Position numbers and translations under genes: made by a program
Assembly (NCBI GenBank): GCA_031180725.1
Contig: JAPSLO010000001.1
Coordinates: 124,001-188,000 of the forward strand
DNA length: 64,000 nt
Source: Roseomonas sp.
GTDB taxonomy: Bacteria > Pseudomonadota > Alphaproteobacteria > Acetobacterales > Acetobacteraceae
Direction: 5' to 3'
Shown: piece after piece, positions 10,871 through 35,657 of the stretch
Numbering within the stretch: position 1 is the stretch's first letter
Layout: each line of letters opens with the position of its first letter
Notes under the pieces: generated by a model
The model's input: the letters and a program-made list of their open reading frames with translations, nothing else
What the model was told of the DNA's origin: nothing
Databases searched by the model: none

Positions 10871-12613
10871 GTGCTAGCCTCGGCTACCGTGTCACGCAAC
10901 CATGCCCTGGCGTCCCTTACGGAGCCGTCCGCCGAACCCGTCCTGGCGCCGCAGCCGGTGCATTCCTCGCCGTCCGGCCCGGTGCGCAGCATCGTGCTGG
11001 TGGGCATGCCGGGCGCCGGGAAGTCCAGCATCGGGCGCCGCCTGGCGGGCCGGCTGGGCCTGCCCTTCAAGGACGCGGACACCGAGATCGAGGCCGCGGC
11101 CGGCCTGCCCATCACCGAGATCTTCGCCCGCTACGGAGAGCCGCATTTCCGCGATGGCGAGCGGCGGGTGATCGCCCGGCTGCTGGCCGGCCCACCACTG
11201 GTGCTGGCCACGGGCGGCGGCGCCTTCGCCGATGCCGAGACCCGGGCGGCGGTCAGGGCTTCCGGCGCGCTGTCCGTCTGGCTGCGCGTGCCGCTGGCCA
11301 GCCTCCTGCGACGCGTGGCCGGGCGGGAGCACCGGCCGATGTTCCTCAATGCCGATCCGCGCGAGGTGCTGGAACGCCTTATCGCCGCGCGTCATCCCCT
11401 GTTTGCCGAGGCCGATATCACCGTGGACTGCACCGACGAGCCGCCCGAGATCACCACCCGCCGCGTGGCGGACGCCATCGCTGCCCATCGCGAGCCGGCG
11501 TGGCTGCGGGTGGGCCTGGGCGAGCGCGCCTATGACATCGTGGCGGGGGAGGGGCTGCTGGCCCGCGCCGGGGCCCTGATCGGGCCGGTCCTGCCGACCC
11601 GCCGCGTGGTGGTGGTGAGCGATGCCGAGGTGGCGAAGCTGCACCTGCCGGCGCTGCGCCGCGGGCTGGAGGCCGCCGGCTTCACCGTGATGGCCGAGCA
11701 CCTGGTGCCGCCGGGGGAGGCGACGAAATGCTTTGCCGTCGCGCAGGGCGCGATCGAGACCATGCTGGCCGCGGGCGCAGACCGGCGGACGGCGGTGGTG
11801 GCGCTGGGCGGCGGCGTGGTGGGGGATCTGGCCGGCTTCTGCGCCGCCATCGCGCTGCGCGGGCTGCCTTTCGTGCAGGTGCCGACGACGCTGCTGGCCC
11901 AGGTGGACAGTTCCGTCGGTGGCAAGACGGGCATTAACCTGTCGCTTGGGAAGAACCTGGTCGGCGCCTTCCACCAGCCGCGGATCGTGCTGGCAGATAC
12001 CTCGACGCTCGGCACGCTGCCGCCGCGCGAGCTGCGAGCCGGCTGGGCGGAGGTGGCCAAGCACGGGCTGATCGCGGGCGAGGAATTCTGGGCGTGGTGT
12101 GAGGAAGCCGGACCACGCGCAGTGCGGGGTGACCCCGAGGCCCTGGCCCATGCGGTGCTGGAAAGCTGCCGGCTGAAAGCCGCGGTCGTGGCCGCCGATG
12201 AGCGGGAGGAGAGCGAGGAGGGCGGCCGCGCGCTGCTGAACCTCGGCCACACCTTCGGCCATGCGCTGGAAGCCGAGAGTGGCTATGGCGGCGCCCTGCT
12301 GCATGGGGAGGCCGTGGCGGTGGGGCTGGGGCTGGCGGCCTCGCTCTCCGCGCGGCTGGGGCACTGTTCGCAGGAGTGGCCGGGGCGGGTGATCAGCCAT
12401 CTGCAGGCGGTGGGGCTGCCGGCCCGCATCGGCGACCTGCCGCGCAGCTATTCCGCCCGGCTGCTGCTGGGCCGCATGCGCAACGACAAGAAGGCCCGGG
12501 ACGGCGCCATGCGCTTCGTGCTGTTCAAGGGCCCCGGCGCCTGCTTCACCGCCGGCGGTGTGCCGCCCGAGCAGGTGGAACGCCTGCTGCTGGACGAGGG
12601 CTGCGCCCCGTGA
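10871..12613 (+). CDS. aroKB: Fused shikimate kinase / 3-dehydroquinate synthase
   Basis: A 580-residue bifunctional protein of the shikimate pathway. Residues about 38-205 are a shikimate kinase, with Walker A GMPGAGKSS at 45-53, DADTEIE and the GGGAF loop. Residues about 208-580 are 3-dehydroquinate synthase, with GGGVVGDLAGF, the VDSSVGGKTGIN motif, and LGHTFGHALE carrying zinc-binding histidines. The two steps are not consecutive in the pathway (AroB is step 2, AroK step 5). The reading frame is continuous with no stop or frameshift. GTG at 10871 is used here; GTG at 10889 and ATG at 10901 are alternatives, as the conserved region starts only near residue 38. Confidence 0.95.
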   Translation: MLASATVSRNHALASLTEPSAEPVLAPQPVHSSPSGPVRSIVLVGMPGAGKSSIGRRLAGRLGLPFKDADTEIEAAAGLPITEIFARYGEPHFRDGERRVIARLLAGPPLVLATGGGAFADAETRAAVRASGALSVWLRVPLASLLRRVAGREHRPMFLNADPREVLERLIAARHPLFAEADITVDCTDEPPEITTRRVADAIAAHREPAWLRVGLGERAYDIVAGEGLLARAGALIGPVLPTRRVVVVSDAEVAKLHLPALRRGLEAAGFTVMAEHLVPPGEATKCFAVAQGAIETMLAAGADRRTAVVALGGGVVGDLAGFCAAIALRGLPFVQVPTTLLAQVDSSVGGKTGINLSLGKNLVGAFHQPRIVLADTSTLGTLPPRELRAGWAEVAKHGLIAGEEFWAWCEEAGPRAVRGDPEALAHAVLESCRLKAAVVAADEREESEEGGRALLNLGHTFGHALEAESGYGGALLHGEAVAVGLGLAASLSARLGHCSQEWPGRVISHLQAVGLPARIGDLPRSYSARLLLGRMRNDKKARDGAMRFVLFKGPGACFTAGGVPPEQVERLLLDEGCAP

Positions 12614-20909: not shown

Positions 20910-22544
20910 TTATATCAACCCACCGGCGAGACCGTCGCGCTGCGGATCGGCGCCGCCTTCCAACTGCCCATCCCACATCGTGATGCCATGCACCCCGGCA
21001 AATGCGTAGCTGATCGCCGCCCGCCGCACCTCATAGCCCATCGTCTCCAGCGCGCGCTGGGTCTCCAGTGGGATGCGGTTGGAGATGTCGATGGCGTCCG
21101 AGGTGGCGGAGAAACGTGGGGCGGAGATCGCCTCCTGGATGTTCATGCCGAAATCCAGCAGGTTCATCAGCACCTGCGCGATCGCCACCGCGATCCAGGC
21201 CCCGCCCGGCGCGCCGAGCGTCGCCACGGGCTGCGCGCCCTCCAGCACGATGGTCGGCGCCATGGTGGAAAAGCGCCGCTTGCCCGGCCCGATGGAGCCT
21301 GCCCGGCCCGGTCGCGGATCGAAGGCGTTCATCCCGCCATTCAGCATGGTGCCGGTGCCCGGCGGGATTACGCCGGAAGGCAGGCCGAGCGTATGCGTCA
21401 GCGAGACGACCATGCCTTCCGCATCCACGCAGGAGATGGTGGTGGTGCCCTTCGCATCCTGGCAGATGCGCGGCAGGGACACGCGTTCCCCGGCGCGGAT
21501 CGCCGCCGCGCAGGCATCGGCATAAGCGTCGGAGAGCAGGCGGTCGAGCGGCGGCGGGGCGAAGCGCGGATCGCCGATGTGGCGGTCCTTGTCGCGGCCG
21601 GCGGTCTTCATCGCCTCCGCCATCGTCGCGATGTAAGAAGGGGTGTTGTGCCCCAGCGCGACGGGATCGAAGCGTTCCATGATGCGCAGGATTTCCGCCA
21701 CGATGATGCCGCCGGCCGGCGGTGGCGGGGTGGAGATGGTGAAGCCGCGATAGGGAACACGGATCGCTTCCCGCTCCTCCGGCGTGTAGGCGGCCAGATC
21801 TGCGGCGGTCAGCAGCCCGCCATGGGCTTCCATATCGGCTACGATCCGGCGCGCCAGCTCTCCGGTGTAGAGCGTCTCCGCCCCCTCCCGTGCCACCAGG
21901 CGCAGGGTCTCGGCCAGTTCGGGGTTGCGGATATGGGCGCCGACGCGCTTCGGCGCGCCGTCCTCGCCGATGTAGAGGCGTTGGCCGTCCGGGGTGAAGG
22001 CCAGCTTGTGACGATAGCTGAGCCGCCCATAGGCGCGCTCATCCATGTGGAACATGCTGGCGACATGCGGGCGCACCAGCCAGCCTTCCTCGGCGCGGGC
22101 GATGGCAGGGGCGAACAGCGCGGCCCAGGGGCGGCGCCCGAAGCGGGCATGCGCCTGGCCCAGCGTGCGCAGGATGCCGGGCACCGTCACTGCCTTGTGG
22201 CCCAGCTCATTGGCATGGCCGCGGATGACATAGCCGAAGCCGTCCGGGCATTCGCGCTCGAATAGATCGGCCCACATCGTCTCCTGACAGGCAACAGGGG
22301 AGACGGAGAGGCCGTCCAGCACCACCTGCCGGCCGCTGCGCGGATCATGCAGCTGCAGCACGCCGAGCCCGCCCAGGCCGCACATCATCGGGTCCACCAC
22401 CCCCTGCGTCAGTGCGCCCGCAATCACCGCATCCAGCGCATTGCCGCCCTCGCGCAGCGCGGCCAGTGCGGCTTCCACCGCTTCCGGCTGGGGTGCCGAG
22501 ACCATGGCGCGGGGCGCGGGCAGGCGGCGGGCAGGGCGGGGCAT
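20910..22544 (-). CDS. Gamma-glutamyltransferase family protein (Ntn hydrolase)
   Basis: 544 residues from the ATG at 22544; the frame is open to 22691, but the extension is not conserved. The gamma-glutamyltransferase fold is shown by REGGNALDAVIAGAL, CGLGGLGVLQLHD, and the autocleavage site KGTTTISCVDAEG, whose nucleophile is T367. Downstream text LNGGMNAFDP and TMAPTIVLEGAQPVATLG completes the small subunit. No signal peptide is visible, which suggests a cytoplasmic enzyme and not classical periplasmic GGT. Related alphaproteobacterial genes are often acylases or oxamate amidohydrolases (HpxW-like), so the substrate is open. Confidence 0.88.
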   Translation of the reverse strand: MPRPARRLPAPRAMVSAPQPEAVEAALAALREGGNALDAVIAGALTQGVVDPMMCGLGGLGVLQLHDPRSGRQVVLDGLSVSPVACQETMWADLFERECPDGFGYVIRGHANELGHKAVTVPGILRTLGQAHARFGRRPWAALFAPAIARAEEGWLVRPHVASMFHMDERAYGRLSYRHKLAFTPDGQRLYIGEDGAPKRVGAHIRNPELAETLRLVAREGAETLYTGELARRIVADMEAHGGLLTAADLAAYTPEEREAIRVPYRGFTISTPPPPAGGIIVAEILRIMERFDPVALGHNTPSYIATMAEAMKTAGRDKDRHIGDPRFAPPPLDRLLSDAYADACAAAIRAGERVSLPRICQDAKGTTTISCVDAEGMVVSLTHTLGLPSGVIPPGTGTMLNGGMNAFDPRPGRAGSIGPGKRRFSTMAPTIVLEGAQPVATLGAPGGAWIAVAIAQVLMNLLDFGMNIQEAISAPRFSATSDAIDISNRIPLETQRALETMGYEVRRAAISYAFAGVHGITMWDGQLEGGADPQRDGLAGGLI

Positions 22545-22643
22545 CGGGGCTCTCCGGGGACTGATCGGGGGGATGATGCGCAGGAATGCGCGGCCGGCCA
22601 ATCGGCCGCCGTGGCCCGCGGCTTCCCGCTCTGTCCACGCCGT

Positions 22644-22671
22644 GCGAGGAACGCCGCGCGAGGAACGCCGC
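22644..22671 (+). repeat. Two tandem copies of a 14-bp unit
   Basis: GCGAGGAACGCCGC occurs twice back to back (22644-22657 and 22658-22671), 18 bp upstream of the broken GNAT gene. Confidence 0.8.
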
Positions 22672-22689
22672 GCGACGGAACCGGACGGC

Positions 22690-23080
22690 ATGCAGGATCC
22701 CCTTGTCCGCGGCGCCAGGCAGCAGGACCAGCAGGGCGTGGTGGACCTCTACCGCCACCTCCATCCCGAGGGGGTGCCCTTGATGTCGGAGGCTGCGGCA
22801 CCCGCCTGGGCTGCGCTGCTCGGCTCGGGCCTGACGCATGTCCTGTGTCCTGAGGGCGCCGGTCCTATGGCGTGATCGAGAATGTGGTGACTCATGCCGA
22901 CCACCGGCGGCGCGGCTTCGGACGGCGCGTGTTGCAGGCGGCGCTGGAGGCGGCCTGGGCGAGGGGCTGCTACGAGGTGATGCTGGCGACCGGGTCCCGC
23001 TGGGAAGCGACCTTGCGCTTCTATGAGCGGGCGGGCTTCGAGTGCGGCGGTAAACCTTCTTCCAGGCCCGGCGCCCCTGA
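22690..23080 (+). pseudogene. Broken GNAT N-acetyltransferase gene (internal deletion plus frameshift)
   Basis: The first part, from ATG at 22690, reads like a GNAT N-terminus (VVDLYRHLHPEGVPL, GLTHVLCPEG) and then hits a stop at 22873. The second part is in another frame and starts abruptly at about 22861 with YGVIENVVTHADHRRRGFGR and VMLATGSRWEATLRFYERAG, the acetyl-CoA site and C-terminal strand of the same family. About 25-30 residues of the usual core between these parts are missing. Near the end, at the short A-run 23052-23054, one missing A shifts the frame; restoring it gives the family-like ending with a stop at 23078-23080. Two independent lesions make a decayed gene more likely than a sequencing error. 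Confidence 0.8.
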
Positions 23081-23354
23081 GTGCCAGGGCAGGAGCCTAG
23101 CGCCGGTTCAGCATCGACAGCCCCGGTTGTTCGCCGCAGTGGACCCTGGGCGCCCCCGGGCGCAACGGGCGGTCGTGGCCACTGGCATCCATGCCCGACG
23201 CGATGGCGTGCGCCGGCAGCGCGGCACGGTCAGCGGGCTCGCGCCGCTAGTCATGCAATGTACTGGTGTTGAAGGCGGTAGCGGAGATCTCGGCTGGCGG
23301 GCGACGCCAGGGACTGTCAACGTGCGGTTCAGGACCGTTTGCAATTCTGGAGCG

Positions 23355-24455
23355 ATGACCTTCGACCGCCGCGTTCTGCTCGGTCTCGCCAGCGCCCTGC
23401 CGGTCGCTGCCCTGCCGGGGCGCCAGGCGGCGGCCCTGCGGCCAAGCCGCCCGGTCGCGACGCGCGCAGTGGCGCCGGAGGCACCGCTGAAGCCGACGGA
23501 ATGGGAGGCGTTCTGCGCCCGCTACATCCTGCCGGAAGGTCGTGTGGTGGATACCGCCAATGGCGGCATCTCCCACAGCGAGGGGCAGGGCTGGGCCATG
23601 CTCTGTGCCGAGCGGATGGATGACCGGGCGAGCTTCGACCGGCTCCTGGACTGGACGCGGCGCACGCTGCCGCGGCCGGGCGATGCGCTCTTCGCCTGGC
23701 GTTACCGGCCGGAGGCGCGCGGCAACAAGGTCGAGGATACGAACAACGCCACCGATGGCGACCTGATGATCGCCTGGGCACTGCTGCGCGCCGGGGCGCG
23801 CTGGCAGGACCCTGGCCTGACGGCGGAGGGCAAGGCCATCGCGCGCGACATCCTGCGGCTGCTGGTGCGCCAGGTGGGGGAGGATGTGGTGCTGCTGCCG
23901 GGTGCGCGGGGCTTCGAGCAGCACGGGTATGTGGTGGTGAACCCCTCCTACTATACCTTCCCGGCCCTGCCGGTCCTGGCGCGCGCCGTGCCGGACCCGC
24001 TATGGCTGCGCCTGGCGGCGGATGGGCTGAAGCTCCTGCGGCGGGCGCGGTTTGGCCGCTGGGGCTTGCCGCCCGACTGGCTGGCCCTGCCACGCGGCGG
24101 CGGGGCGCCGATACCGGCGCCGGGCTGGCCCCCGCGCTTTTCCTATGATGCGGTCCGGGTGCCGCTCTACTTGGCTTGGGCCGGGCTGGGGCGGGAACCG
24201 GTAGCGGCGAGCGCGGCGCGTTTCTGGACCGACCCCCGCCATCCGAGCCCTCCGGCCTGGGCTGATCTCTCGCAGGACACCGTCTCCCCCTACGCGGCGC
24301 CCTCAGGAGTACGGGCCATCGCCCGTCTGGCCGTGGCACGGGCAGGCGCGGAGGGCGCCGCCACGGACATGCCCTCGATTGCCGACGCGAATGACTACTA
24401 TTCGGCGGCATTGACGCTGCTGGCTCATCTCGCCTGGAGAGATTCTACTACCTGA
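23355..24455 (+). CDS. bcsZ: Cellulase of the cellulose synthase operon (GH8, BcsZ/CMCax)
   Basis: 366 residues from ATG at 23355, with GGAG 4 bp upstream. The N-terminus DRRVLLGLASALPVAAL looks like a twin-arginine or Sec signal, so the enzyme is periplasmic. Glycoside hydrolase family 8 is shown by GISHSEGQGWAML (E76, likely proton donor), NNATDGDLMIAWAL (D134) and FSYDAVRVPLYLAW (D265). This endo-1,4-glucanase is needed for proper export and crystallisation of cellulose in known bcs systems. It is the first gene of the operon, as CMCax is in Komagataeibacter. The 270 bases before it (23081-23354) show no gene and may hold the operon promoter, though I could not identify one with confidence. 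Confidence 0.93.
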   Translation: MTFDRRVLLGLASALPVAALPGRQAAALRPSRPVATRAVAPEAPLKPTEWEAFCARYILPEGRVVDTANGGISHSEGQGWAMLCAERMDDRASFDRLLDWTRRTLPRPGDALFAWRYRPEARGNKVEDTNNATDGDLMIAWALLRAGARWQDPGLTAEGKAIARDILRLLVRQVGEDVVLLPGARGFEQHGYVVVNPSYYTFPALPVLARAVPDPLWLRLAADGLKLLRRARFGRWGLPPDWLALPRGGGAPIPAPGWPPRFSYDAVRVPLYLAWAGLGREPVAASAARFWTDPRHPSPPAWADLSQDTVSPYAAPSGVRAIARLAVARAGAEGAATDMPSIADANDYYSAALTLLAHLAWRDSTT

Positions 24456-24544
24456 ACTGATAGATGCGCCCGGTTTGTGCGTTAATGGCTATTCCAAATT
24501 GACGCAGGTCACGGCATGTTGCATGGCGCACAGGGGGTGGGGCG

Positions 24545-25654
24545 ATGGCGCAGGACACGGATGTCGCGCGCGTGGCTGCGGCGCTGCGCACGCCTGCCAT
24601 ACGCTACCGCAGCTTCGGAAACGAGCCGATCCGCGCCTCCACCTCGGAAGAAGCCGACCGCGCCTCGAAAGATGGACCGCCGGCCGAGAAGGTCAGCCTG
24701 CCCGCGACGACTCCGGCCGTTCCTGAAGCCGCACCACTCGCGGCCCGGCCTGGGCCGACGCCGCCCTTGACGATGGCGGGCACCGTGCCGGACCAGCCGC
24801 TGGCTTCCGCCGTGCCGCCGTCCCCACCGCCGCGCAGCTCGCCCGCGCAACCCCCGCAGTCTCCGGCAATGCCGGGCTGGATGTCGGCCGCGGCCGCGCA
24901 GCCCGTGCCGGAGCCTCCGCAGGCCTGGGTGCCGCCCGCGTCCCCACAACCTCCGCAGTCTCCGGCGATGCCGGGCTGGATGCCGGCCGCGCCCCCCCAG
25001 CCCGCGCCAGAGCCTCCGCAGGCCTGGGTGCCGCCCGCGTCCCCACAACCCCCGCAGCCTCCGGTGGTGCCGGGCTGGATGCCGGCCGCGGCCCCCCAGC
25101 CCGCGCCAGAGCCCCCGCAGGCCTGGGTGCCGCCCGCGCTTCTACAGCCTCGGGTGGTGCCATCCGCCGCACCGCCTTTCGCCGCTGCGCCGCCCCACGC
25201 GTCGCCGCCGGCCCCGCCCGGATCCCAGGTGGGCCTGGCCGACATGACGCTGCTGCGCGCCGTCGAGAGCCTGCCGCCCCTGCCGTATCCCGAGGCGCCT
25301 CGATTCATGGATTTCACGTTGCTCTCCGCCGCGCCGCCCATGACGCCGAGCCCAGCCCCGATGGCCCAGCCCACGCGGGCGGAGTTTCCGCTGATCGCCG
25401 CGCTGACGGGGCGCGCGCCGCCACCCGTCAGCCCGCCCTGGCGGGGCTGGCCCGCGACGGTCCATGCAATCGCCCCCGACTCCCACGCCTCAGCACCTCC
25501 GTCGGCGCCTGAGCCTACTGCGGCGCCGGCCCTGCCAGCCGCCGGAGTCGCCTTGCCGCTGCCCGACCTCTTCCGCCTTCTGGGGGCGGCCACACCTGCC
25601 GCCCGCGCCGCCCTGGCAATGCTGCCCTCCCCGGCAGGCGCGGCCGGCCCATGA
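24545..25654 (+). CDS. Proline-rich cellulose accessory protein, BcsH/CcpAx-like (BcsO/BcsP-type)
   Basis: A 369-residue, strongly proline- and alanine-rich protein placed between bcsZ and bcsQ. Three conserved-looking pieces stand out. Near the N-terminus is DVARVAAALRTPAIRYRSF, similar in my memory to the N-terminal motif of CcpAx/BcsH and to BcsR/BcsP-type motifs. In the middle are three 33-residue repeats (residues 104-202) built on PGWMPAA, PEPPQAWVPP. At the C-terminus is an amphipathic helix LPDLFRLLGAATPAARAAL. The gene order (bcsZ, this gene, then synthase) equals cmcax-ccpAx-bcsAB of Komagataeibacter, where CcpAx helps align synthases. The family assignment is inferred from position and short motifs, not from a full alignment. 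Confidence 0.68.
   Translation: MAQDTDVARVAAALRTPAIRYRSFGNEPIRASTSEEADRASKDGPPAEKVSLPATTPAVPEAAPLAARPGPTPPLTMAGTVPDQPLASAVPPSPPPRSSPAQPPQSPAMPGWMSAAAAQPVPEPPQAWVPPASPQPPQSPAMPGWMPAAPPQPAPEPPQAWVPPASPQPPQPPVVPGWMPAAAPQPAPEPPQAWVPPALLQPRVVPSAAPPFAAAPPHASPPAPPGSQVGLADMTLLRAVESLPPLPYPEAPRFMDFTLLSAAPPMTPSPAPMAQPTRAEFPLIAALTGRAPPPVSPPWRGWPATVHAIAPDSHASAPPSAPEPTAAPALPAAGVALPLPDLFRLLGAATPAARAALAMLPSPAGAAGP
24854..25150 (+). repeat. Three in-frame 99-bp coding repeats
   Basis: Units at 24854-24952, 24953-25051 and 25052-25150 are each exactly 99 bp and encode 33 residues beginning PQSPAMPGWM or PQPPVVPGWM. The second unit is closest to the first at the start and end and closest to the third in the middle, which suggests duplication with later conversion. 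They lie inside the proline-rich bcs gene. Confidence 0.93.
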
Positions 25655-25679
25655 TCCGTTCCGGAGGCTTCCGCCTGCC

Positions 25680-26486
25680 ATGCCGCTGATCTGTTTTGCG
25701 TCTCCGAAAGGCGGTGTGGGCAAGACCACCCTGGCGGCCAACCTCGCCGATGCTTTGCACCGCAACGGGCGCCGCGTGATCGCAGTGGATTTCGATCCGC
25801 AGAACACGCTGCGCCTGCATTTCGGGATTCCGCTGACCGAGATGGGCGGCTTCATGGCCCAACTGCCGCGCCGCCCGGACTGGCGCAGCTGCCTGCGGGC
25901 CACGCCCTCCGGCGTCGGTGTGCTGCCGCATGGCGCGACGGAATTGCGCGGCGCGCTGGGCCTGGCGGCCATGCTGGAGCGTGATCCGGAACTTCTGGCG
26001 GCACCGGTGCGCGCCATGCTGTCCGATCCCGGCCTGCTGGTGATCGCCGATACGCCGCCCGGGCCTTCCCACGCGCTGGCGGTGCTGGTGCCGATGGCGA
26101 GCATGGTGGTCGCCGTGCTGCAGGCGGAGGCGCTCAGCGCCGTGCTGGTGCCCGAGATCGTCTCCGGCCGCTTCCTTGGCTCCGGCACCATGGCGGCGAT
26201 GTTCGCGACGCGGCTGCGCGTGGTGCTGAACGAGGTGGACCTGCAGTCCCGCCTCTCGCGCGCCTCGGCGGAGGCGGTGGCCCGTCATCTCGGCCCGCGA
26301 CTGCTCGGCGCTGTCTGCCGCGACGAGACCCTGGCCGAGGCGCTGGCCTGCCAGAAGCTGGTGCAGGACAGCGCGCCGCAGGGCCGCGCGGCGGAAGACA
26401 TCCGCATCATCGCCCGCGCCATCGAGGCGGCGCTGCCCACCATGGAAGGCCGGGAGCCGCTGACGGCAGGCTGGGCCGCGCAATGA
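25680..26486 (+). CDS. bcsQ: Cellulose synthase-associated ParA/MinD-like ATPase BcsQ
   Basis: 268 residues from the ATG at 25680, with a GGAGG about 12 bp upstream. The deviant Walker A SPKGGVGKTTLAANL at the N-terminus, DFDPQNTLRLHFG and IADTPPGPSHALAVLV define a MinD/ParA-superfamily ATPase of the BcsQ (YhjQ) type. BcsQ is thought to control polar placement of the cellulose machinery and interacts with BcsR/BcsE where those exist. The stop overlaps the ATG of bcsAB by 4 bp. No bcsE, bcsF, bcsG or bcsR gene is present in the window. Confidence 0.92.
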   Translation: MPLICFASPKGGVGKTTLAANLADALHRNGRRVIAVDFDPQNTLRLHFGIPLTEMGGFMAQLPRRPDWRSCLRATPSGVGVLPHGATELRGALGLAAMLERDPELLAAPVRAMLSDPGLLVIADTPPGPSHALAVLVPMASMVVAVLQAEALSAVLVPEIVSGRFLGSGTMAAMFATRLRVVLNEVDLQSRLSRASAEAVARHLGPRLLGAVCRDETLAEALACQKLVQDSAPQGRAAEDIRIIARAIEAALPTMEGREPLTAGWAAQ

Positions 26487-29400
26487 GTCTGGGCCACGCC
26501 ATCCGCCACGGTCGGGCCTTCCGCAACGGGATCTGGGCCAAGTCCTGGATCACCTGGCCGATCTTCCTGCTCGGCGGACTGCTCGCGCTGACCTTCATCG
26601 TGGTGCCGCTGGAGGCTGAGCAGCAGGCCTGGCTCGCGGTGGCCGGCTTCCTGCTCTTCCTGGTGTGCAACCGCATTCCGGGGCGGGGAATGACGCTGTT
26701 CCTCGCCATGCTCTCCTCCCTCATCTCGCTGCGCTACATCCATTGGCGCATGGTGGAGACGCTGGAGTTCACCAGCTTCATGCAGACCTTCCTCGGCACC
26801 GGCCTGCTGCTGGCCGAGGTCTATGCCGTGATCTGCATGCTGCTGGCCTATTTCCAGGTGATCTGGCCGCTGGATCGCAAGCCGGTGCCGATGCCGGACG
26901 ACCCGGCTACCTGGCCAACGGTGGACATCTACATCCCCACCTACAACGAGGCGCTGGAGGTGGTGAAGCCGACCATCTACGGCGCACTGGCGATCGACTG
27001 GCCGCCGGAGAAGATGAACGTCTACGTGCTGGACGACGGCCGCCGCGACGAATTCCGCCGCTTCTGCGAACAGGTGGGTTGCCAGTACATCATCCGCCCC
27101 GACAACAAGGGCGCGAAGGCCGGCAACATCAATCACGCGCTGACGAGGACGAATGGCGAGTTCATCGCCATCTTCGACTGCGACCACGTGCCGACGCGCG
27201 CCTTCCTGCAGCTGACGGTCGGCTGGCTGCTGCGCGACCGCGATCTGTGCATGGTGCAGACGCCGCACCACTTCTATTCGCCCGACCCATTCGAACGGAA
27301 CCTCGCCCCCGGCCAGAACGTGCCGAATGAGGGCCTGCTGTTTTATGGCCTGGTGCAGCAGGGCAATGATCTGTGGAACGCCAGCTTCTTCTGCGGCTCC
27401 TGCGCGGTGATCCGGCGCGAGGCGCTGGAGGAAGTGGGCGGCGTGCCGACCCTGACCGTGACCGAGGACTGCCATTGCAGCCTGCGCATGCAGCGGCGCG
27501 GCTGGCGCACCGCCTATCTGCGCGTGCCGCTGGCGGCGGGGCTGGCGACGGAACGGCTGATGCTGCACATCGGCCAACGGATGCGCTGGGCGCGCGGCAT
27601 GATCCAGATCATGCGCATGGACAACCCGCTGACCGGCTCCGGCCTCCGCTGGTTCCAGCGCTTCTGCTACTTCATGTCGCAGTTCCACTTCCTGTTCCCG
27701 CTGCCGCGCTTCGTCTTTCTGACCGCGCCGCTGGCCTTCCTGCTGTTCGGCGAGAGCATCATCGCCGCCAGCCCGCTGGCCATCGTCGCCTATGCGGGAC
27801 CGCACATCGTCCACTCGGTGGGGGCCACCAGCCGCCTCTCGGGCCATGTGCGCCACAGTTTCTGGTCCGAGATCTATGAAGCGGTACTGGCGCTGTACCT
27901 GGTGCCGGTCGTGCTGGCGACTCTCCTCGATCCGCGGAAGGGCAAGTTCAACGTCACCGACAAGGGCGGCACGCTGAGGGAAGGCTATTTCGACCTCCGC
28001 GCGGTCGGCCCGAACATGGTGCTGGCGCTGGCGCTGGTCGCGGGCCTGCTCTCCGGCATCTACGGCATGCTGGCGAACCCGGTGGACAGCCTGGATTTCC
28101 AGGCCTACGCACTGAACCTGATCTGGGCGGTGCTGTCCTTCGTGGTGGTGCTGGCCGGCTTGGCGGTAGGGCGCGAACGCCGGCAGGTGCGCGAACGCGC
28201 GCGCATCGGCGCGGCGGTGGCGGTGAATCTGGTGCTGCCCGATGGCCAGGTGGTCGAAGGGGAAACGATGGACCTCTCCCTGGGCGGCGCCGCCATTGCC
28301 ATCGCGCGGCCCGAGGGCGTGCCGGACAATGCGCGGGTCACGCTGGAGCTGGATGTCGGCCCCGACTGGGTGAGCATCCCGGCCGAGGTCCTGCGGTGGC
28401 AGAATGGCCGTCTCCAGGCGCGCTTTGCCGCGGAAACCCTGCAGGACGAGGGAAACATCGTGCGCGCCGTGCTAGGCCGCGCCGATGCCTGGGTGGATTG
28501 GGATTCCGTGCGCCACGACAGGCCGCTGCGCAGCCTGCTGGAAGTCGCGCAATCGATCGGCGGCCTGTTCCAGGGCGACAGCCAGCTGAAGGCCTTCGTG
28601 CGCCGCCAGAGCCGCACTGGCCGCGGCGTGCGCGAGGGCAGCGGCGCCGGAGGGGCGGGTCCCCAGGCCCCCGGTCCTACGCGCGGGCCGGCCGGCCCGG
28701 CTGGTGGCCCTGGCAGCATCGCAGGCAGCACCGAGAGCCAGGCCGGGCGGCAGCGTGGCAATATCCGGCGCGCCGCGGCGCTGGTCCTGGCGCTGAGCGT
28801 GCCAGGGACGACGCTGGCGCAGGTCAATCTGCGCGCTGCACCGCCGCCGCCCGTGCCGCTGCAGCCGGGTGCGCAGGGCCTGCCCGTGCAGCAACCGTTG
28901 CCCGCAGCCCCGCCTGCTGATCCGGGCGGCAGGCCGGCAGCCTCCGGTGTGCCCGCTTTCGCGGTTCCCGGCGGCGTCCCTGGCGCGTCCCTGACCGCGG
29001 CACCCGATGCGCCGGCACCTGGGCGGCCTGGCTTGCAGCCCCGCCTGCCGGCAATGGGCAGCTTCGGAGCGCCCTCCGGGCCGCCCGGCTCCTCGCGCAC
29101 GGAAACCCGCACGCTGCGCCAGCTCGGCCTGGCTGCCCCGATGCAGTTGCGCGGCGCCTCGGATCTGCAGGGCGTGTTGTTCGGCGTGCGGGGCGACGAG
29201 GTGGTGACGCAGGCGCGACTGGTGCTGCAGGGCGCCACCTCTCCGGCGCTGATCCCGGAATTCAGCCAGATCAACATGACGCTGAACGAGCAGTTCGTCG
29301 GCGTCGTCAACCCCGACCGCAACCGGCCGGCCTTCGGGCCGCTGGAATTCCCCATCAATCCCGTCTTCTTCACCGACCGGAACCGGCTGAACTTCCGCTT

Positions 29401-31222
29401 CACCGGCCGCTACACGGTGGAGTGCAACGACCCGCTCTCTGGTCTGCTCTGGGCGAACATCTCCGATCTCTCGACCCTTCAGCTCACGCTGGAGCGCCTG
29501 CCGCTGCTGCGCGACCTGGCGCGCCTGCCGGAGCCCTTCTTCGACGCGCGCCTGCTGCGGGAACCGCTGAACCTGCCGGTGGTGGTGACGGAAAGCGCGG
29601 GGAACGAGGTGCTGAAAGCCGCGGCCACGGTGGCGTCCTGGTTCGCCGTGCAGGCGGACTACCGTGGCGCGGTCTTTCCCGTCTCCTTCCAGCTGCCGTC
29701 GCAGGGAATGGCAGTGGTGATCGCCACCGGCCAGGAGGCTATCCCCGGCCTCAGCATGCCACGCTTCGATGGGCCGACGGTGGCGCTGGTGCCAAACCCC
29801 GCCGATCCGCTGAGCCTGCTGCTGGTGGTGGGCGGCCGCAATGGCGCGGAAGCCGTGCAGGCCGCCACCGTGCTGGCCACCAACCGCGAAGCCCTGGCCG
29901 GCGAGATTGCGGTGGTGCAGCCGGTGAACCTGGCGCGGCGCCGTCCCTATGACGCGCCGCGCTGGATCCGTACTGACCGCCCGGTGCGCTTCGGCGAGTT
30001 GCTGGACCCTTCGGAATTGCAGGCCTACGGCTATGCGCCAGGACCGGTGGCGATCCCCTTCCGCACGGCGCCGGACCTCTTCACCTGGCGATCCCGCCCA
30101 CTGCCGGTGGAGGTGCATTACCGCGCTCCGCCCGGCCCGATCATGGATGTCTCCGCCTCGCGCCTCGATGTCGCGCTGAACGATGTCTATCTGCGCAGCC
30201 TGCCGCTGCGCGATGCAGAGCCGCCCTGGCCGCTGAACCTGGCGGCGCGCTACTTCGGCTCGCCCGACCGGCAGGATGCGCGCTTCGGCCTGCCTCCCTA
30301 CCTGATCTTCGGCATGAACGATCTGCAGTTCCGCTTCGACATGCGCCCGATGCATCGCGGAGACTGCGTTGCCGTGCCGGCGGATGTGCGTGCCAGCATC
30401 GATCCCGACAGCACGATCGACCTTTCCGACGCCTATCGCTTCACCACGCTGCCCAACCTCTCCTTCTTCGCCGGCTCCGGCTTCCCCTTCACGCGGATGG
30501 CCGATTTCAGCGACACCGCCGCGGTGCTGCCCGAACGGCCGAGCCCGCAGGAGCTGTCGGCCTTCCTGGCACTGCTCGGCCGGCTCGCCGCCAATGTCGG
30601 CCATGCCGCCACCGGGATCGAGGTGGTGCGCGGCAGCGGGCTGGAGCGGGTGACGGGGAGGGACCTGCTGGTGGTGGGCATGCTGGGCCGCAGCCCGGCG
30701 CTGAACGCGCTGCTGCGCAACGGCCCGCTGCAGGTGGAAGGCAACCGCATCAGCGTGGCCCTGCCCGATGCGATGCAGGGCTTCCGCAACTTCTTCCTGG
30801 GCGATGACCCGCGCGTGGTGCGGGAAGAGGCGCAGGCGCTGCTGCAGAGCCCGGGCGAGGGCTCGGGCATGCTGCTTGGCATGGAAAGTCCGCTGCGTGC
30901 CGGGCGTTCCCTGGTGATGCTTACCGGCACCACGGCGCATGGGCTGGAAGCGATGCTGGCCGCACTAGGCGATCACGAACAGGCGGCGCGCGTGCAGGGA
31001 GATCTGGCCATCCTCTCGAATGGCCGTATCACCTCCTTCACCCTCGGGCAGCGTTATACGGTGGGCAGCCTGCCGCCCTGGGTCTGGCCGCAATACTTCC
31101 TCCAGACCCGGCCAGACCTGCTGCTGCTGCTACTGATCGGCGCCTGCGCTATCGTGGCCATCCCGGCCTACTGGACCCTGCGGCGGCGCGCCGCGATCCG
31201 CCTCCGGACCCGCACCCCATGA
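26483..31222 (+). CDS. bcsAB: Fused cellulose synthase BcsA-BcsB
   Basis: A single 1579-residue frame. Residues 1-560 are BcsA: several membrane helices around a family 2 glycosyltransferase with LDDG (184-185 acidic pair), FDCDH (D232, D234), TED (327-329) and QRMRW (365-369), plus FFCGSC at 302-307. A PilZ domain follows, with arginines at 564-572 and DLSLGG at 597-602, so c-di-GMP should activate it. Residues about 715-760 form a Gly/Pro/Ala linker, then a hydrophobic, signal-like segment (763-779) leads into BcsB, which ends in a C-terminal transmembrane helix. Fused BcsAB is known from Komagataeibacter. The product is beta-1,4-glucan made from UDP-glucose and moved across the inner membrane. 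It overlaps bcsQ and bcsC by 4 bp at each end. Confidence 0.96.
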   Translation: MSLGHAIRHGRAFRNGIWAKSWITWPIFLLGGLLALTFIVVPLEAEQQAWLAVAGFLLFLVCNRIPGRGMTLFLAMLSSLISLRYIHWRMVETLEFTSFMQTFLGTGLLLAEVYAVICMLLAYFQVIWPLDRKPVPMPDDPATWPTVDIYIPTYNEALEVVKPTIYGALAIDWPPEKMNVYVLDDGRRDEFRRFCEQVGCQYIIRPDNKGAKAGNINHALTRTNGEFIAIFDCDHVPTRAFLQLTVGWLLRDRDLCMVQTPHHFYSPDPFERNLAPGQNVPNEGLLFYGLVQQGNDLWNASFFCGSCAVIRREALEEVGGVPTLTVTEDCHCSLRMQRRGWRTAYLRVPLAAGLATERLMLHIGQRMRWARGMIQIMRMDNPLTGSGLRWFQRFCYFMSQFHFLFPLPRFVFLTAPLAFLLFGESIIAASPLAIVAYAGPHIVHSVGATSRLSGHVRHSFWSEIYEAVLALYLVPVVLATLLDPRKGKFNVTDKGGTLREGYFDLRAVGPNMVLALALVAGLLSGIYGMLANPVDSLDFQAYALNLIWAVLSFVVVLAGLAVGRERRQVRERARIGAAVAVNLVLPDGQVVEGETMDLSLGGAAIAIARPEGVPDNARVTLELDVGPDWVSIPAEVLRWQNGRLQARFAAETLQDEGNIVRAVLGRADAWVDWDSVRHDRPLRSLLEVAQSIGGLFQGDSQLKAFVRRQSRTGRGVREGSGAGGAGPQAPGPTRGPAGPAGGPGSIAGSTESQAGRQRGNIRRAAALVLALSVPGTTLAQVNLRAAPPPPVPLQPGAQGLPVQQPLPAAPPADPGGRPAASGVPAFAVPGGVPGASLTAAPDAPAPGRPGLQPRLPAMGSFGAPSGPPGSSRTETRTLRQLGLAAPMQLRGASDLQGVLFGVRGDEVVTQARLVLQGATSPALIPEFSQINMTLNEQFVGVVNPDRNRPAFGPLEFPINPVFFTDRNRLNFRFTGRYTVECNDPLSGLLWANISDLSTLQLTLERLPLLRDLARLPEPFFDARLLREPLNLPVVVTESAGNEVLKAAATVASWFAVQADYRGAVFPVSFQLPSQGMAVVIATGQEAIPGLSMPRFDGPTVALVPNPADPLSLLLVVGGRNGAEAVQAATVLATNREALAGEIAVVQPVNLARRRPYDAPRWIRTDRPVRFGELLDPSELQAYGYAPGPVAIPFRTAPDLFTWRSRPLPVEVHYRAPPGPIMDVSASRLDVALNDVYLRSLPLRDAEPPWPLNLAARYFGSPDRQDARFGLPPYLIFGMNDLQFRFDMRPMHRGDCVAVPADVRASIDPDSTIDLSDAYRFTTLPNLSFFAGSGFPFTRMADFSDTAAVLPERPSPQELSAFLALLGRLAANVGHAATGIEVVRGSGLERVTGRDLLVVGMLGRSPALNALLRNGPLQVEGNRISVALPDAMQGFRNFFLGDDPRVVREEAQALLQSPGEGSGMLLGMESPLRAGRSLVMLTGTTAHGLEAMLAALGDHEQAARVQGDLAILSNGRITSFTLGQRYTVGSLPPWVWPQYFLQTRPDLLLLLLIGACAIVAIPAYWTLRRRAAIRLRTRTP

Positions 31223-34200
31223 CCAGGATCCGCTCGAACAGCCATCGCGCCGGCCTGCTCACCGGCGCGCTCATCCTGGGCAGCCTGTCGGGCGTGGCTC
31301 TGCCGACCATGCCCGCCCAGGCGCAGGAGCGCGCCATTTCCGCGCTGCTGGACCAGGCGAATTTCTGGAAGCTGCAGAACCGGCCTGACCAGGTGGTGCG
31401 GGTGCTGGAACGGGTGCTGCTGGCCGACCCCACCAATGCCGAGGCGCTGGCCGGGCTGGCGGAAGCGCAGGCCCAACAGGGCAATGCGGCTGCCGCGCAG
31501 GAGGCGCTGACGCGCCTGCGCAATATCGCGCCGAGCGATCCGCGCACCAACCAGGCCGATACGGCGGTGCGCACCCAGACCGTGGATGCCGCGGCCCTGG
31601 CCCAAGCCCGGCAACTGGCCCAGTCCGGCCGCGGGGCGGAGGCGGTGGAGCGCTACCGCAGCCTGTTCCGCAACGGCCAGGTCCCGGACAGCTTCGCGTT
31701 GGAATACTACCAGACCCTGGCCGGAACCGAGGGCGGCTGGCGCGAGGCGCGGGATGGGCTGGCAGATCTGGCGCGGCGCGCACCGTCGAACAGCGCGGTA
31801 CAGCTGGCCTATGCGCAGGTGCTGACCTATCGCGAGGAGACGCGCGCCCAGGGGCTCGAGATCCTGCGCCGCCTCTCCGGCCAGCCCGACAGCCAACAGA
31901 GCGCGACGGCCGCCTGGCGCCAGGCGCTGACCTGGCTGGGTTCAGGGCCGGAGGCGGTGCAGCCGCTCGAAGGCTATCTCCGGCAATACCCCAACGACGC
32001 CGAGATGCGCCGCCGGCTGGAGGAGGCGCTCAACCCGTCGGCCAGCGCCGGCGATGCCCGGACCAGCGCCTGGGCCGCCTTTCGCGCCAACAACCTGCGC
32101 AAGGCCGAGACGCAGTTCCAGGCGGCGCTGGCCGCCAACCCGCAGGATGCCGACGCGCTGGGCGGCATGGGACTGATCCGCGCGCGTCAGGGCCGGCGCG
32201 ATGAAGCGCGGCGCCTGCTGACCGCGGCGATCGAGGCCGAGCCCTCCACCCGCGCCAATTGGCAGCGTGCGCTGGACGGGCTTTCGGGCCGTGGCGGGGG
32301 CGGCGGCAGCGCGGGCTCCAACCCCGAGCTGCAACAGGCGCGCAACCTGGTGGAGGAGGGCAAGCTCTCCGAGGCCACGCCGGTGCTGACGCGCATCATC
32401 CGTCGCAATGGTGGCGACCGGCCGGATGCCGAGGCGCTGATGGGCGACATCGCGCTGCGCCAGGGCAATGCGATGCAGGCCGAGGAATTCTATCGCGCGG
32501 CACTGTCCCGCCGGTCCAATTTCGGCGCCGCGATGTCGGGGCTGGCTTCCGCCTACCAGGCGCAGGGCCGCTTTGCCGAGGCGGAGGACATCCTCCGGCG
32601 GCTGGGCCAGGTGGAACAGCCGCAGGTGCGCGCCGAGGCGCTGCGTGCAGAGGCGGCCCGCACCCAGGACCCCGCCGCCGCCGCCGCGCTGCTGCGCACG
32701 GCGATGCAGACCGAGCCGAACAATCCCTGGCCGCGCCTCGACCTGGCGCGACTGTTGCAGCGCAACGGCCAGGCGGCGGAGGCCAGGGCGCTGATGGATC
32801 AGATCGTGGCCGGGCCCGCCCGGCCGGAAGCGCTCCACGCCGCCGCGCTCTTCGCCAGCGAGCAGCGACGCTTCGCCGATGCGGCGGCGCTGCTGGAACG
32901 CATCCCGGCCGGCCAGCGCAGCGCGGAGATGAACCGCAGCCTGGCTACCGCGCGGCTGGAGGCGGAGGTCGGCGCGGCCGCCCTGCTGGCCACCCAGGGA
33001 CGGCGCGGCGAGGCACGCCAGCGGCTGATGGCCATCGCCAGCCGCCGCGACCCGACCGGCGAGGCCGCGTCGGCGGCGGTGCGGGCGCTGACCAGCCTGA
33101 ACGATACCGTGGCCGCGCAGCAGGCTGCGCGCGCCGCGGCAATCGCGGCGCGCGGCCAGCCGCCGGTGGCGCAACTCGCCGCGGCAGGCGCCCTGATGCA
33201 GGCGGGCCTGGACCAGGAAGCGGCGATGCTGGCCGCCAGCATCGATGCCAGCCGCCTGACAGCGGAGCAGCGGCGCAGCGCCCAGCAGTTGCAGGCGGGG
33301 CTGGCGATCCGCGCCTCGGACCAGCTCAACAGCCAGGGCGACCAGGCCACCGCCTATGAGGTGCTGGCACCGACACTCCGGCAGGATCCGCAGAACATCG
33401 CCGCCAACCTGGCGCTGGCGCGGCTCTATCAGCGCGCCGGCGAGGCCGAGCAGGCGCAGCGCATCGCCGAGGCGGTGCTGCAGCGCAACCCGCGCGACGC
33501 CGATGCGCGCCAGGCGGCGGTGGATGCCGCCATCGCCAATCGCGACTGGAGCCGGGCGGAAGCGTTGCTCTCCGAGGGCCGCGCGCTGCTGCCGGGCGAT
33601 CCGCGCATGCCGATGCTGGAGGCGCGGCTGGCGCGGGCCTGGGGCGACCAGCGCCGTGCGCAGGCTGCGCTGGAAGAAGCGGCGCGGCTGCGCCAGCGCC
33701 AGATCGGGCTCGATCCGCGCGCCAGCGCTGCCTTCGGCACCACGGCGCCGCAGGCCACGGTCCCGCAGCAGCCCGTTCCCGGCACCGACAATCCCTTCCG
33801 TCGCGTCCCGCTCTCCGGCAGCGCCGGCTATGCGGAGGTGGCACAGGCGCCGCTTTCCGTGCCGCCGGCCTATCTCTACCAGGCGCCGCAATTCGCCCAG
33901 GCCCCCAGCTTGGCGCCGCAGCCGCAGCCGATGCAGGGCCAGCAATTCGCCCAGGCGATGATCGGCAACAGCACCCCCGCGCCGCCCGACCCGCTGCTGA
34001 GCGAGATCACCCGCCAGCTCCAGGAGGTGCGGGAGGAAGCGGCACCGCGCGTCACGCCAAGTTTCGGCCTGCGCACCCGCTCCGGCGATGCCGGCATCGA
34101 CCGGCTCATGGAGACCACCGCGGGCGCCGAAGGCAGCGTCGCCATGCCCGGCATCGGGGGGCGGCTCACCGCGCGGGCCTCGGCGGTGAATGCGGATATC

Positions 34201-35166
34201 GGGCAGCTTGCCGGCTCGCTCGGCAGCATGCGCCGATTCGGCACCAATCCGTCCATGCTGCCGGGGCTGAACGGCACGCCCAGCGCAGCGCAGGTCCAGC
34301 AGGCCACCAATACGGAAAGCAGCCAGACCGGCCTGGCGCTGGGCCTCGCCTATACGCGGCCGAACTTCTCGGTGGATGTCGGCTCCACCCCGATGGGCTT
34401 CAACCAGACCAATATCGTCGGCGGCATCGAGATCGCGCCCGAGATCAGCGAGGGCGTGCGCGTGCGCATTACCGCCGAACGCCGCGCCCTGATGGACAGC
34501 CTGCTGTCCTGGGGCGGGCTGCGCGATCCGGGCAGTGGGCGCGAATGGGGCGGCGTGACGCGCAGCGGCGGGCGGGTGCAGCTGGAGATGACCCAGGGCG
34601 ACAACGCCTTCTACGTCGCCGGCGGCTACTACGTCTTCGACGGCACCGATGTGGCGGAGAACAGCCGCATCGAGCTGGGCGCTGGCTTCTCCACGCCCGT
34701 CTGGCGCGGCGCGACGGACGAGTTGGTGACCGGCCTCGACATCGTCTACTTCGCCTATGACAAGAACCTGCGCTTCTTCACCTATGGCCATGGCGGCTAT
34801 TTCAGCCCGCAGAGCTTCATTGCGGCCAATGTGCCCGTGGATTACCGCGGACGGTCGGGCAATTTCACCTATCGCCTCGGCGGCTCCCTCGGCTTCGCCA
34901 CCTTCACCGAGGACCGCACGCCAATCTATCCGAACGATCCCAACCTGCAGGCCGGGTTGGTACAGCGCGTGGCGAATGGCGAGAGCGGCGTGGACACCTT
35001 CTTCGCCGGGCAGAGCAAGTCCGGCGTGGTCGGCAGCCTGCGTGGCGACATCGAATACATGGTGACGCCGCAGCTTCGCATTGGCACCGCGATGCGGCTG
35101 GACCAGGCGGCCGATTGGAGCGAGGCGCGCGCCTTCGTCTATGCGCGCTACCGCTTCACCCAATAG
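31219..35166 (+). CDS. bcsC: Cellulose synthase subunit BcsC (TPR plus outer-membrane beta-barrel)
   Basis: A 1315-residue protein with a signal peptide ending in PAQAQ at about residue 35. A long series of tetratricopeptide repeats fills residues about 40-850, followed by a low-complexity Pro/Gln linker. The C-terminal BcsC domain (about 1015-1315) has VDVGSTPMGF, GSGREWGGVTRSGGR and the final ARYRFTQ, which forms the outer-membrane export pore. The TPR part would scaffold the periplasmic path of the glucan. The start ATG overlaps the bcsAB stop. The size is normal for the family. Confidence 0.95.
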   Translation: MTRIRSNSHRAGLLTGALILGSLSGVALPTMPAQAQERAISALLDQANFWKLQNRPDQVVRVLERVLLADPTNAEALAGLAEAQAQQGNAAAAQEALTRLRNIAPSDPRTNQADTAVRTQTVDAAALAQARQLAQSGRGAEAVERYRSLFRNGQVPDSFALEYYQTLAGTEGGWREARDGLADLARRAPSNSAVQLAYAQVLTYREETRAQGLEILRRLSGQPDSQQSATAAWRQALTWLGSGPEAVQPLEGYLRQYPNDAEMRRRLEEALNPSASAGDARTSAWAAFRANNLRKAETQFQAALAANPQDADALGGMGLIRARQGRRDEARRLLTAAIEAEPSTRANWQRALDGLSGRGGGGGSAGSNPELQQARNLVEEGKLSEATPVLTRIIRRNGGDRPDAEALMGDIALRQGNAMQAEEFYRAALSRRSNFGAAMSGLASAYQAQGRFAEAEDILRRLGQVEQPQVRAEALRAEAARTQDPAAAAALLRTAMQTEPNNPWPRLDLARLLQRNGQAAEARALMDQIVAGPARPEALHAAALFASEQRRFADAAALLERIPAGQRSAEMNRSLATARLEAEVGAAALLATQGRRGEARQRLMAIASRRDPTGEAASAAVRALTSLNDTVAAQQAARAAAIAARGQPPVAQLAAAGALMQAGLDQEAAMLAASIDASRLTAEQRRSAQQLQAGLAIRASDQLNSQGDQATAYEVLAPTLRQDPQNIAANLALARLYQRAGEAEQAQRIAEAVLQRNPRDADARQAAVDAAIANRDWSRAEALLSEGRALLPGDPRMPMLEARLARAWGDQRRAQAALEEAARLRQRQIGLDPRASAAFGTTAPQATVPQQPVPGTDNPFRRVPLSGSAGYAEVAQAPLSVPPAYLYQAPQFAQAPSLAPQPQPMQGQQFAQAMIGNSTPAPPDPLLSEITRQLQEVREEAAPRVTPSFGLRTRSGDAGIDRLMETTAGAEGSVAMPGIGGRLTARASAVNADIGQLAGSLGSMRRFGTNPSMLPGLNGTPSAAQVQQATNTESSQTGLALGLAYTRPNFSVDVGSTPMGFNQTNIVGGIEIAPEISEGVRVRITAERRALMDSLLSWGGLRDPGSGREWGGVTRSGGRVQLEMTQGDNAFYVAGGYYVFDGTDVAENSRIELGAGFSTPVWRGATDELVTGLDIVYFAYDKNLRFFTYGHGGYFSPQSFIAANVPVDYRGRSGNFTYRLGGSLGFATFTEDRTPIYPNDPNLQAGLVQRVANGESGVDTFFAGQSKSGVVGSLRGDIEYMVTPQLRIGTAMRLDQAADWSEARAFVYARYRFTQ

Positions 35167-35177
35167 GGACGCGCGTG

Positions 35178-35657
35178 ATGCAGCCGGAAGGCGCCGAGGG
35201 CCTGCCCGCCGCCTATCTCGCGCGGCGGAACATCGCGCCGCAATGGCGCGCCTTCCTCCGCGCTCTGGCGGAGACGCTGGATGAGAAGCTGGACGCCCAG
35301 GCTCGCACTGCGCTGATGCGTGCCATCGGCCAGCGCATGGCGCAGGCCATGCCGCTGCCGCGCTGCGACACGCTGGCGGCGCTGGAGATACGCATCAATG
35401 ATGCGCTGGCCACGATCGACTGGGGTTACTGCACGCTCTCGTTGGAGCCGGGCGCGGGCCGGCTGGTGGTGCGGCACACCGCGGCGCCCGCGATCGCCGC
35501 TAGTGGGGATCCCGTGGGGCGCTGGGTCGGCGCGGTGCTGGAAGGGCTCTATGGCGCCTGGTTCGCAGGCCAGCCGGGCGCCGATGCCAGCCTGCAGCCG
35601 GTGCTGGCGAGTTTCGTGCCGGGCGCGGCAACGCTGCATTACGGCCGCGGCGGCTGA
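35178..35657 (+). CDS. bcsD: Cellulose synthase subunit BcsD (crystallisation)
   Basis: 159 residues from the ATG at 35178, 11 bp after bcsC; the Komagataeibacter BcsD is of nearly the same length. Text such as YLARRNIAPQWRAFLRALAE, LPRCDTLAALEIRINDALA and WGYCTLSLEP matches BcsD. BcsD forms a periplasmic octameric ring through which glucan chains pass and is needed for ordered crystalline cellulose. An upstream in-frame ATG at 35115 lies within bcsC and is less likely. This is the last gene of the operon. Confidence 0.92.
   Translation: MQPEGAEGLPAAYLARRNIAPQWRAFLRALAETLDEKLDAQARTALMRAIGQRMAQAMPLPRCDTLAALEIRINDALATIDWGYCTLSLEPGAGRLVVRHTAAPAIAASGDPVGRWVGAVLEGLYGAWFAGQPGADASLQPVLASFVPGAATLHYGRGG

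Follow-up and report, generated by a model that had tools for sequence, protein, structure and literature searches.

The 64,000-nucleotide stretch of Roseomonas sp. DNA analysed here (the window), which sits on contig C8 of a 5.7-Mb genome, carries a cellulose synthesis (bcs) operon on the + strand at positions 23355-35657, in which bcsZ, a gene for a proline-rich protein, bcsQ, a fused bcsAB, bcsC and bcsD follow one another as six open frames. Judged from its sequence the operon is real, intact and ordinary, and it very probably encodes a type I cellulose secretion system, complete and of the BcsP-BcsD-BcsQ kind that many members of the family share, in which a cytoplasmic scaffold would be held together by a tether and bcsQ would be an inherited part. 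A first-pass annotation had instead read it as a Komagataeibacter plan into which bcsQ was inserted, and the polarity of that reading is corrected here: most of the readable bcsD operons of the family carry bcsQ (43 of 57), BcsQ diverges together with BcsA, and it is the model cellulose producers, as a nested clade lacking bcsQ, that appear to form the exception.

Gene content and predicted mode of action

The genes of the operon and the matches on which their names rest are as follows.

23355..24455, + strand: bcsZ, GH8 endoglucanase (Pfam PF01270, E 2.3e-64; NCBIfam NF008305, 157 bits, below its cut-off of 299)
24545..25654, + strand: putative bcsP/bcsH-like proline-rich gene, 369 amino acids with 99 Pro and 8 Trp (composition; proline-rich open reading frames (ORFs) at the same position in relatives)
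25680..26486, + strand: bcsQ, ParA/MinD-type ATPase (CBP_BcsQ PF06564, 5e-26, over the cut-off; KGGVGKTT)
26483..31222, + strand: bcsAB, cellulose synthase with PilZ and co-catalytic subunit in one fused protein of 1579 amino acids (TIGR03030, PF03170, PF07238 and motifs)
31219..35166, + strand: bcsC, TPR and outer-membrane export barrel (BCSC_C PF05420, 2.8e-92; TPR families)
35178..35657, + strand: bcsD (PF03500, 2.7e-43; 11 bp past bcsC)

Four-base ATGA overlaps join bcsQ to bcsAB and bcsAB to bcsC, and the remaining gaps are 89 bp (bcsZ/proline-rich gene), 25 bp (proline-rich gene/bcsQ) and 11 bp (bcsC/bcsD). The six-gene order, the overlaps or spacings below 100 bp, the gene identities and the fusion of BcsA and BcsB, all described in the first-pass annotation, were thus borne out, and a scaffold of BcsD type may fairly be supposed. 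The family scans of bcsZ, bcsQ and bcsD were made on ORFs extended upstream of the starts given above. BcsAB matches TIGR03030 with 855 bits (cut-off 699), being the only one of three matches in the genome to pass the cut-off, and contains BcsB (PF03170, 9.6e-175) and PilZ (PF07238, 5.3e-08) regions. DDG, FDCDH, TED and QRMRW are retained in the BcsA part and RRQVR and DLSLGG in the PilZ part, which we take to be the catalytic and PilZ motifs, respectively. BcsD matches the BcsD chains of PDB entries 7zzq, 3a8e, 3aj1, 7zzy, 8pkd, 8poc and 8pog. For BcsQ, the PDB matches were the BcsQ chains 6ybu and 6yar at 1e-10 beside the ParA-type segregation protein 1wcv at 6e-11, and its 151 bits for TIGR03371 fall just below the equivalog cut-off of 158, which counts against the assignment.

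No match to BcsG (PF11658), a mark of type II operons, was found in the genome, the E. coli control being positive. The other type II mark, bcsE, is not among the six operon genes, no genome-wide search aimed at BcsE having been made. The presence of bcsD beside the synthase genes and the lack of bcsG agree with type I, and bcsQ within the operon agrees with the BcsP-BcsD-BcsQ kind. A scan for promoters and terminators gave no signal above that of shuffled sequences.

In cellulose secretion, cyclic di-GMP (c-di-GMP) controls the polymerisation and translocation of the glucan by BcsAB, while export is the task of BcsC and editing that of BcsZ. In the operon of the window, BcsAB would accordingly build glucan from uridine diphosphate glucose (UDP-glucose) upon binding of c-di-GMP to PilZ, BcsC would carry it out and BcsZ would trim it. 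The proline-rich protein is predicted to be a cytoplasmic tether that joins BcsD to BcsQ and the synthase: its BcsR-like N-terminal segment may touch BcsA, BcsQ or both, its Pro/Trp-rich repeat would be a long flexible linker and its C-terminus may dock on BcsD. BcsQ would stabilise or place this scaffold, by which the synthases would come to lie in an ordered array. According to PMC11470070, betaproteobacterial BcsP begins with a BcsR-like segment, brings in BcsD and also interacts with BcsQ, and BcsP-BcsD-BcsQ scaffolds are described there for type I systems. The six betaproteobacterial type I or hybrid operons of this kind among the loci collected here (L037-L039, L041, L043 and L044) share with the window bcsD and, next to bcsQ, a proline-rich protein with a BcsR-like N-terminus (in the window a putative one), but differ in that bcsD comes first and that the five loci reaching bcsB have it unfused from bcsA.

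There is a considerable, though less than even, chance that the operon is instead silent or yields amorphous cellulose only, with BcsD and the proline-rich protein serving the stability of the synthase and not crystalline ribbons; silence is not indicated, as all genes are intact and their motifs kept.

The proline-rich protein

The gene between bcsZ and bcsQ probably encodes a BcsP/BcsH-like protein, in which the following features were located.

24554..24631, + strand: conserved N-terminal segment around DTDVARVAAALRTPAIRYRSFGNEP, possibly BcsP/BcsR-like (hidden Markov model matches; profile against shuffled decoys)
24848..25138, + strand: 99-bp tandem repeat, 2.9 copies, giving a Pro/Trp-rich linker repeat of 33 residues (Tandem Repeats Finder, 92% matches, score 498)
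25553..25588, + strand: C-terminal LPLPDLFRLLGA, weak candidate for a BcsD-docking motif (resembles the BcsH C-terminus of 7zzq; shuffle p = 0.10)

The protein has no Pfam or NCBIfam match at E<=0.001, and in Pfam at E<=10 the full protein returns only the irrelevant UPF0149 (E 6.6) and its first 42 residues nothing. An unrelated low-complexity protein, whose likeness to BcsP and BcsH came from composition or chance, would give the same blank result. That reading is considered unlikely, since relatives have a proline-rich ORF at the same place in the operon and the conserved start DTDVARVAAALRTPAIRYRSFGNEP falls outside the Pro-rich linker and is kept in loci with bcsQ and in some without it. 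The linker itself may change fast; by eye, the proline-rich ORFs of relatives in the same genus carry other Trp/Pro repeats.

Searched against 12,334 ORFs, an N-terminal profile built from 27 loci with bcsQ found four of the five bcsQ-less proteins not of Komagataeibacter type (E 1e-17 to 2e-6), missing the one of L078 and giving one false match on the opposite strand (L077, 0.2). The corresponding profile of the Komagataeibacter-type proteins recovered L064 at 8.4e-20, followed by L078 at 0.0039, L095, L087, L094 and L031 at 0.23. The last five, its best matches beyond the Komagataeibacter type, are without exception proline-rich ORFs of bcs loci, which again speaks against an unrelated protein. 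With a Paraburkholderia BcsP profile the matches were L045 (2e-4), an ORF on the opposite strand (0.067), L048 (0.091) and L078 (0.2). When whole profiles were compared, the family N-terminal set scored 16.8 against a seven-row BcsP/BcsR set, with none of 100 column-shuffled decoys as good (hhalign probability 4), and 25.8 against the Komagataeibacter set, with one of 100 decoys as good, an outlier at 125 (probability 35). These scores exceed most or all of the decoys, which is not expected of chance likeness.

At the other end of the protein, PDB entry 7zzq holds BcsD together with a fragment of BcsH, to which the C-terminus of one family member is matched; a betaproteobacterial BcsP searched against PDB had no match at E<=1. 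The C-terminal BcsH/BcsP-like motif was tested in loci of the family only, and without the type used for training (L063, L065-L069 and L103). It reached p < 0.05 in 11 of 41 proteins and p < 0.01 in 8, the expected numbers being about 2 and 0.4.

Several results weigh against a BcsP/BcsH-like protein and in part favour an unrelated one. The C-terminus of the window's own protein, LPLPDLFRLLGA, has p = 0.10 and so lies outside the 11 of 41; the bcsQ-plus N-terminal profile finds none of six Komagataeibacter-type proteins at E<1; and the best family protein for the Paraburkholderia BcsP profile is only L078, at 0.2. Against E. coli BcsR alone the family N-terminal set scored just 5.7, with 5 of 100 decoys as good and a probability of 0.15, a direct comparison of the Komagataeibacter with the BcsP/BcsR set gave no match (probability 0.12, score 4.9, run without decoys), and the hhalign probabilities are low throughout, the best being 35.

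More tentatively, and with odds slightly on the negative side, BcsH (CcpAx), BcsP and BcsR may belong to a single family whose N-terminus faces BcsA and BcsQ, and to which type I systems would have added a proline-rich linker and a BcsD-docking tail. Komagataeibacter BcsH, the one linked to crystalline cellulose, would then be the BcsP of an operon that lost BcsQ, perhaps on the way toward a cortical belt. The one-family idea is a point worth following. The only open-access paper found to join BcsR, BcsH, proline-rich and cellulose was PMC11470070.

Two further ORFs may be mentioned beside this protein. A short ORF before bcsQ in Acetobacter orientalis (L034:9504-9953) has DISALKAAVQEPGLKYKEF near its start and two LRD-F motifs at its end, and by eye looks intermediate between BcsR and BcsP/BcsH. 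In L080 bcsZ stands after bcsD, and an ORF beyond bcsZ (- strand, 12122-12391) matches the proline-rich N-terminal model at 5e-8.

Occurrence and descent of bcsQ

As a genome-wide marker of bcsQ, PF06564 was rejected as uninformative, matching 248 of 249 family genomes and all 14 controls, and the presence of bcsQ was therefore judged from operon neighbourhoods. In the first search 59 genomes were covered, 16 of them with BcsD, and in the second 249 genomes of the family, 61 of them with BcsD, the window's own genome being included in both. All BcsD neighbourhoods of both searches were fetched and their gene order was read with the window proteins as queries, a proline-rich ORF being scored by a loose pattern or by leucine count; at L064 the gene-order script missed a proline-rich candidate although the ORF exists. 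This gave 68 BcsD loci of the family, the window included, after exclusion of L033, which had a weak BcsD match (23.4 bits) and no bcs gene found beside it. Eleven of the 68 end before bcsQ could be read (L020, L058, L061, L062, L072, L073, L081, L086, L089, L092 and L104).

Among the 57 loci readable upstream of bcsA, bcsQ was within the operon in 43 and absent from 14, namely eight of Komagataeibacter type (L063-L069 and L103) and six others (L029, L031, L032, L077, L078 and L093). The exact order of the window was called in 31 of the 68 loci, window counted, and L053 and L055 would agree with it but for one ORF call that is extra or broken. Within the genus, 8 of 14 other genomes are BcsD-positive and all eight carry bcsQ. 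The run bcsQ-bcsAB-bcsC-bcsD was also seen in Acetobacter orientalis (L034), Zhongshania (L035), a Sphingomonadales metagenome-assembled genome (L040) and Alcanivorax (L042).

The Komagataeibacter-type label rests on L067, whose BcsD matches PDB 3aj1 (E 3e-101) and 7zzy (1e-100) and whose proline-rich protein has its match in the BcsH fragment of 7zzq. These three entries are taken to derive from Komagataeibacter, and the family is presumed by the same route to be Acetobacteraceae. Like the window, the eight Komagataeibacter-type loci have a proline-rich ORF, bcsA and bcsB (a single fused gene in six of them) and bcsD, with bcsZ upstream in the seven that reach it; unlike the window, they lack bcsQ in the operon and have a conserved BcsH-type C-terminus as in 7zzq, and in L066 and L068 bcsC lies upstream of bcsZ and not between bcsAB and bcsD.

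The pairwise distances of BcsQ and BcsA are strongly correlated (r = 0.93, 42 loci), none of 1000 permutations being as high. A quickly built BcsA tree with 73 rows implies at least five changes in the state of bcsQ, and in it the eight Komagataeibacter-type loci without bcsQ form a clade (support 100) that is nested next to carriers of the gene (joint support 99). L101, with BcsA in two pieces, was left out of both analyses and L047 and L052 out of the tree. Co-divergence together with a nested bcsQ-less clade is the pattern predicted by vertical inheritance with losses, and most likely bcsQ came with the operon by inheritance and was lost from the Komagataeibacter-type operons.

Three points weigh against this reading. 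The tree was built quickly and drew long-branch warnings. Its 17 outside rows were gathered through a search for BcsQ and all carry bcsQ by choice, so that gain versus loss is not rootable without bias. Lastly, PMC13028821 reports for 17 of 18 complete Komagataeibacter genomes a bcsQ that shares its contig with bcsA and bcsZ. This result does not fit a plain "Komagataeibacter without bcsQ"; the assignment in that paper is a contig-level best hit, and because PF06564 matches 248 of 249 family genomes the bcsQ in question need not be the operon gene and may be a ParA-type gene at another place in the chromosome.

That the window holds a new hybrid, a Komagataeibacter plan with bcsQ inserted, is very improbable: apart from bcsQ and details its order agrees with that of most Komagataeibacter-type loci, and an unbiased rooting of gain versus loss is lacking, but the share of readable family loci with bcsQ, the co-divergence of BcsQ and BcsA, the nesting of the Komagataeibacter-type loci and the bcsQ operons already published for Kozakia and for Asaia, a member of Acetobacteraceae, all stand against it. 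With bcsQ present in most readable bcsD operons of the family, relatives having both BcsD and BcsQ offer the natural comparison for the role of BcsQ and for how Komagataeibacter-type operons manage without it.

Of these published operons, the one on a Kozakia baliensis plasmid shares bcsZ, bcsQ, bcsAB and bcsC with the window and has two c-di-GMP enzyme genes besides, neither bcsD nor a proline-rich gene being among the six genes listed (PMC5050591). The Asaia operon, by its figure legend in PMC8156966, has a hypothetical protein, BcsQ, BcsB, BcsC and BcsD like the window, together with a beta-glucosidase (Bgl), a glycosyltransferase family 2 (GT2) gene and a c-di-GMP gene, and the legend does not call the hypothetical gene proline-rich. 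The first-pass annotation had allowed that the order with bcsQ might already be standard and studied in this lineage. By the counts given above it is standard; as to study, the Kozakia and Asaia operons have been drawn in print, but no functional work on bcsQ in Acetobacteraceae was found in the open-access literature, an absence that weighs little with subscription papers outside that coverage. For Roseomonas with cellulose synthase or bcs, the open-access literature gave PMC8102297 alone, whose three Roseomonas passages concern a literature count.

Two loci lacking bcsQ are of note for their structure. L077 is a second bcsAB-bcsC-bcsD locus in the genome of L071, where neither bcsQ nor bcsZ is present and no proline-rich gene was called. 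L032 has separate, overlapping bcsA and bcsB frames and is nested among loci with fused bcsAB, so the state of fusion varies within the family. Fused BcsAB occurs in a number of Proteobacteria and in Acidobacteriales and most likely arose by several fusions, according to PMC9693552.

The gene upstream of bcsZ

Directly upstream of bcsZ a GNAT acetyltransferase gene (22441-23140) seems to be broken. The ORF starting at 22872 covers the C-terminal part of the domain only, and by eye the N-terminal part apparently lies in the preceding ORF, in another frame.

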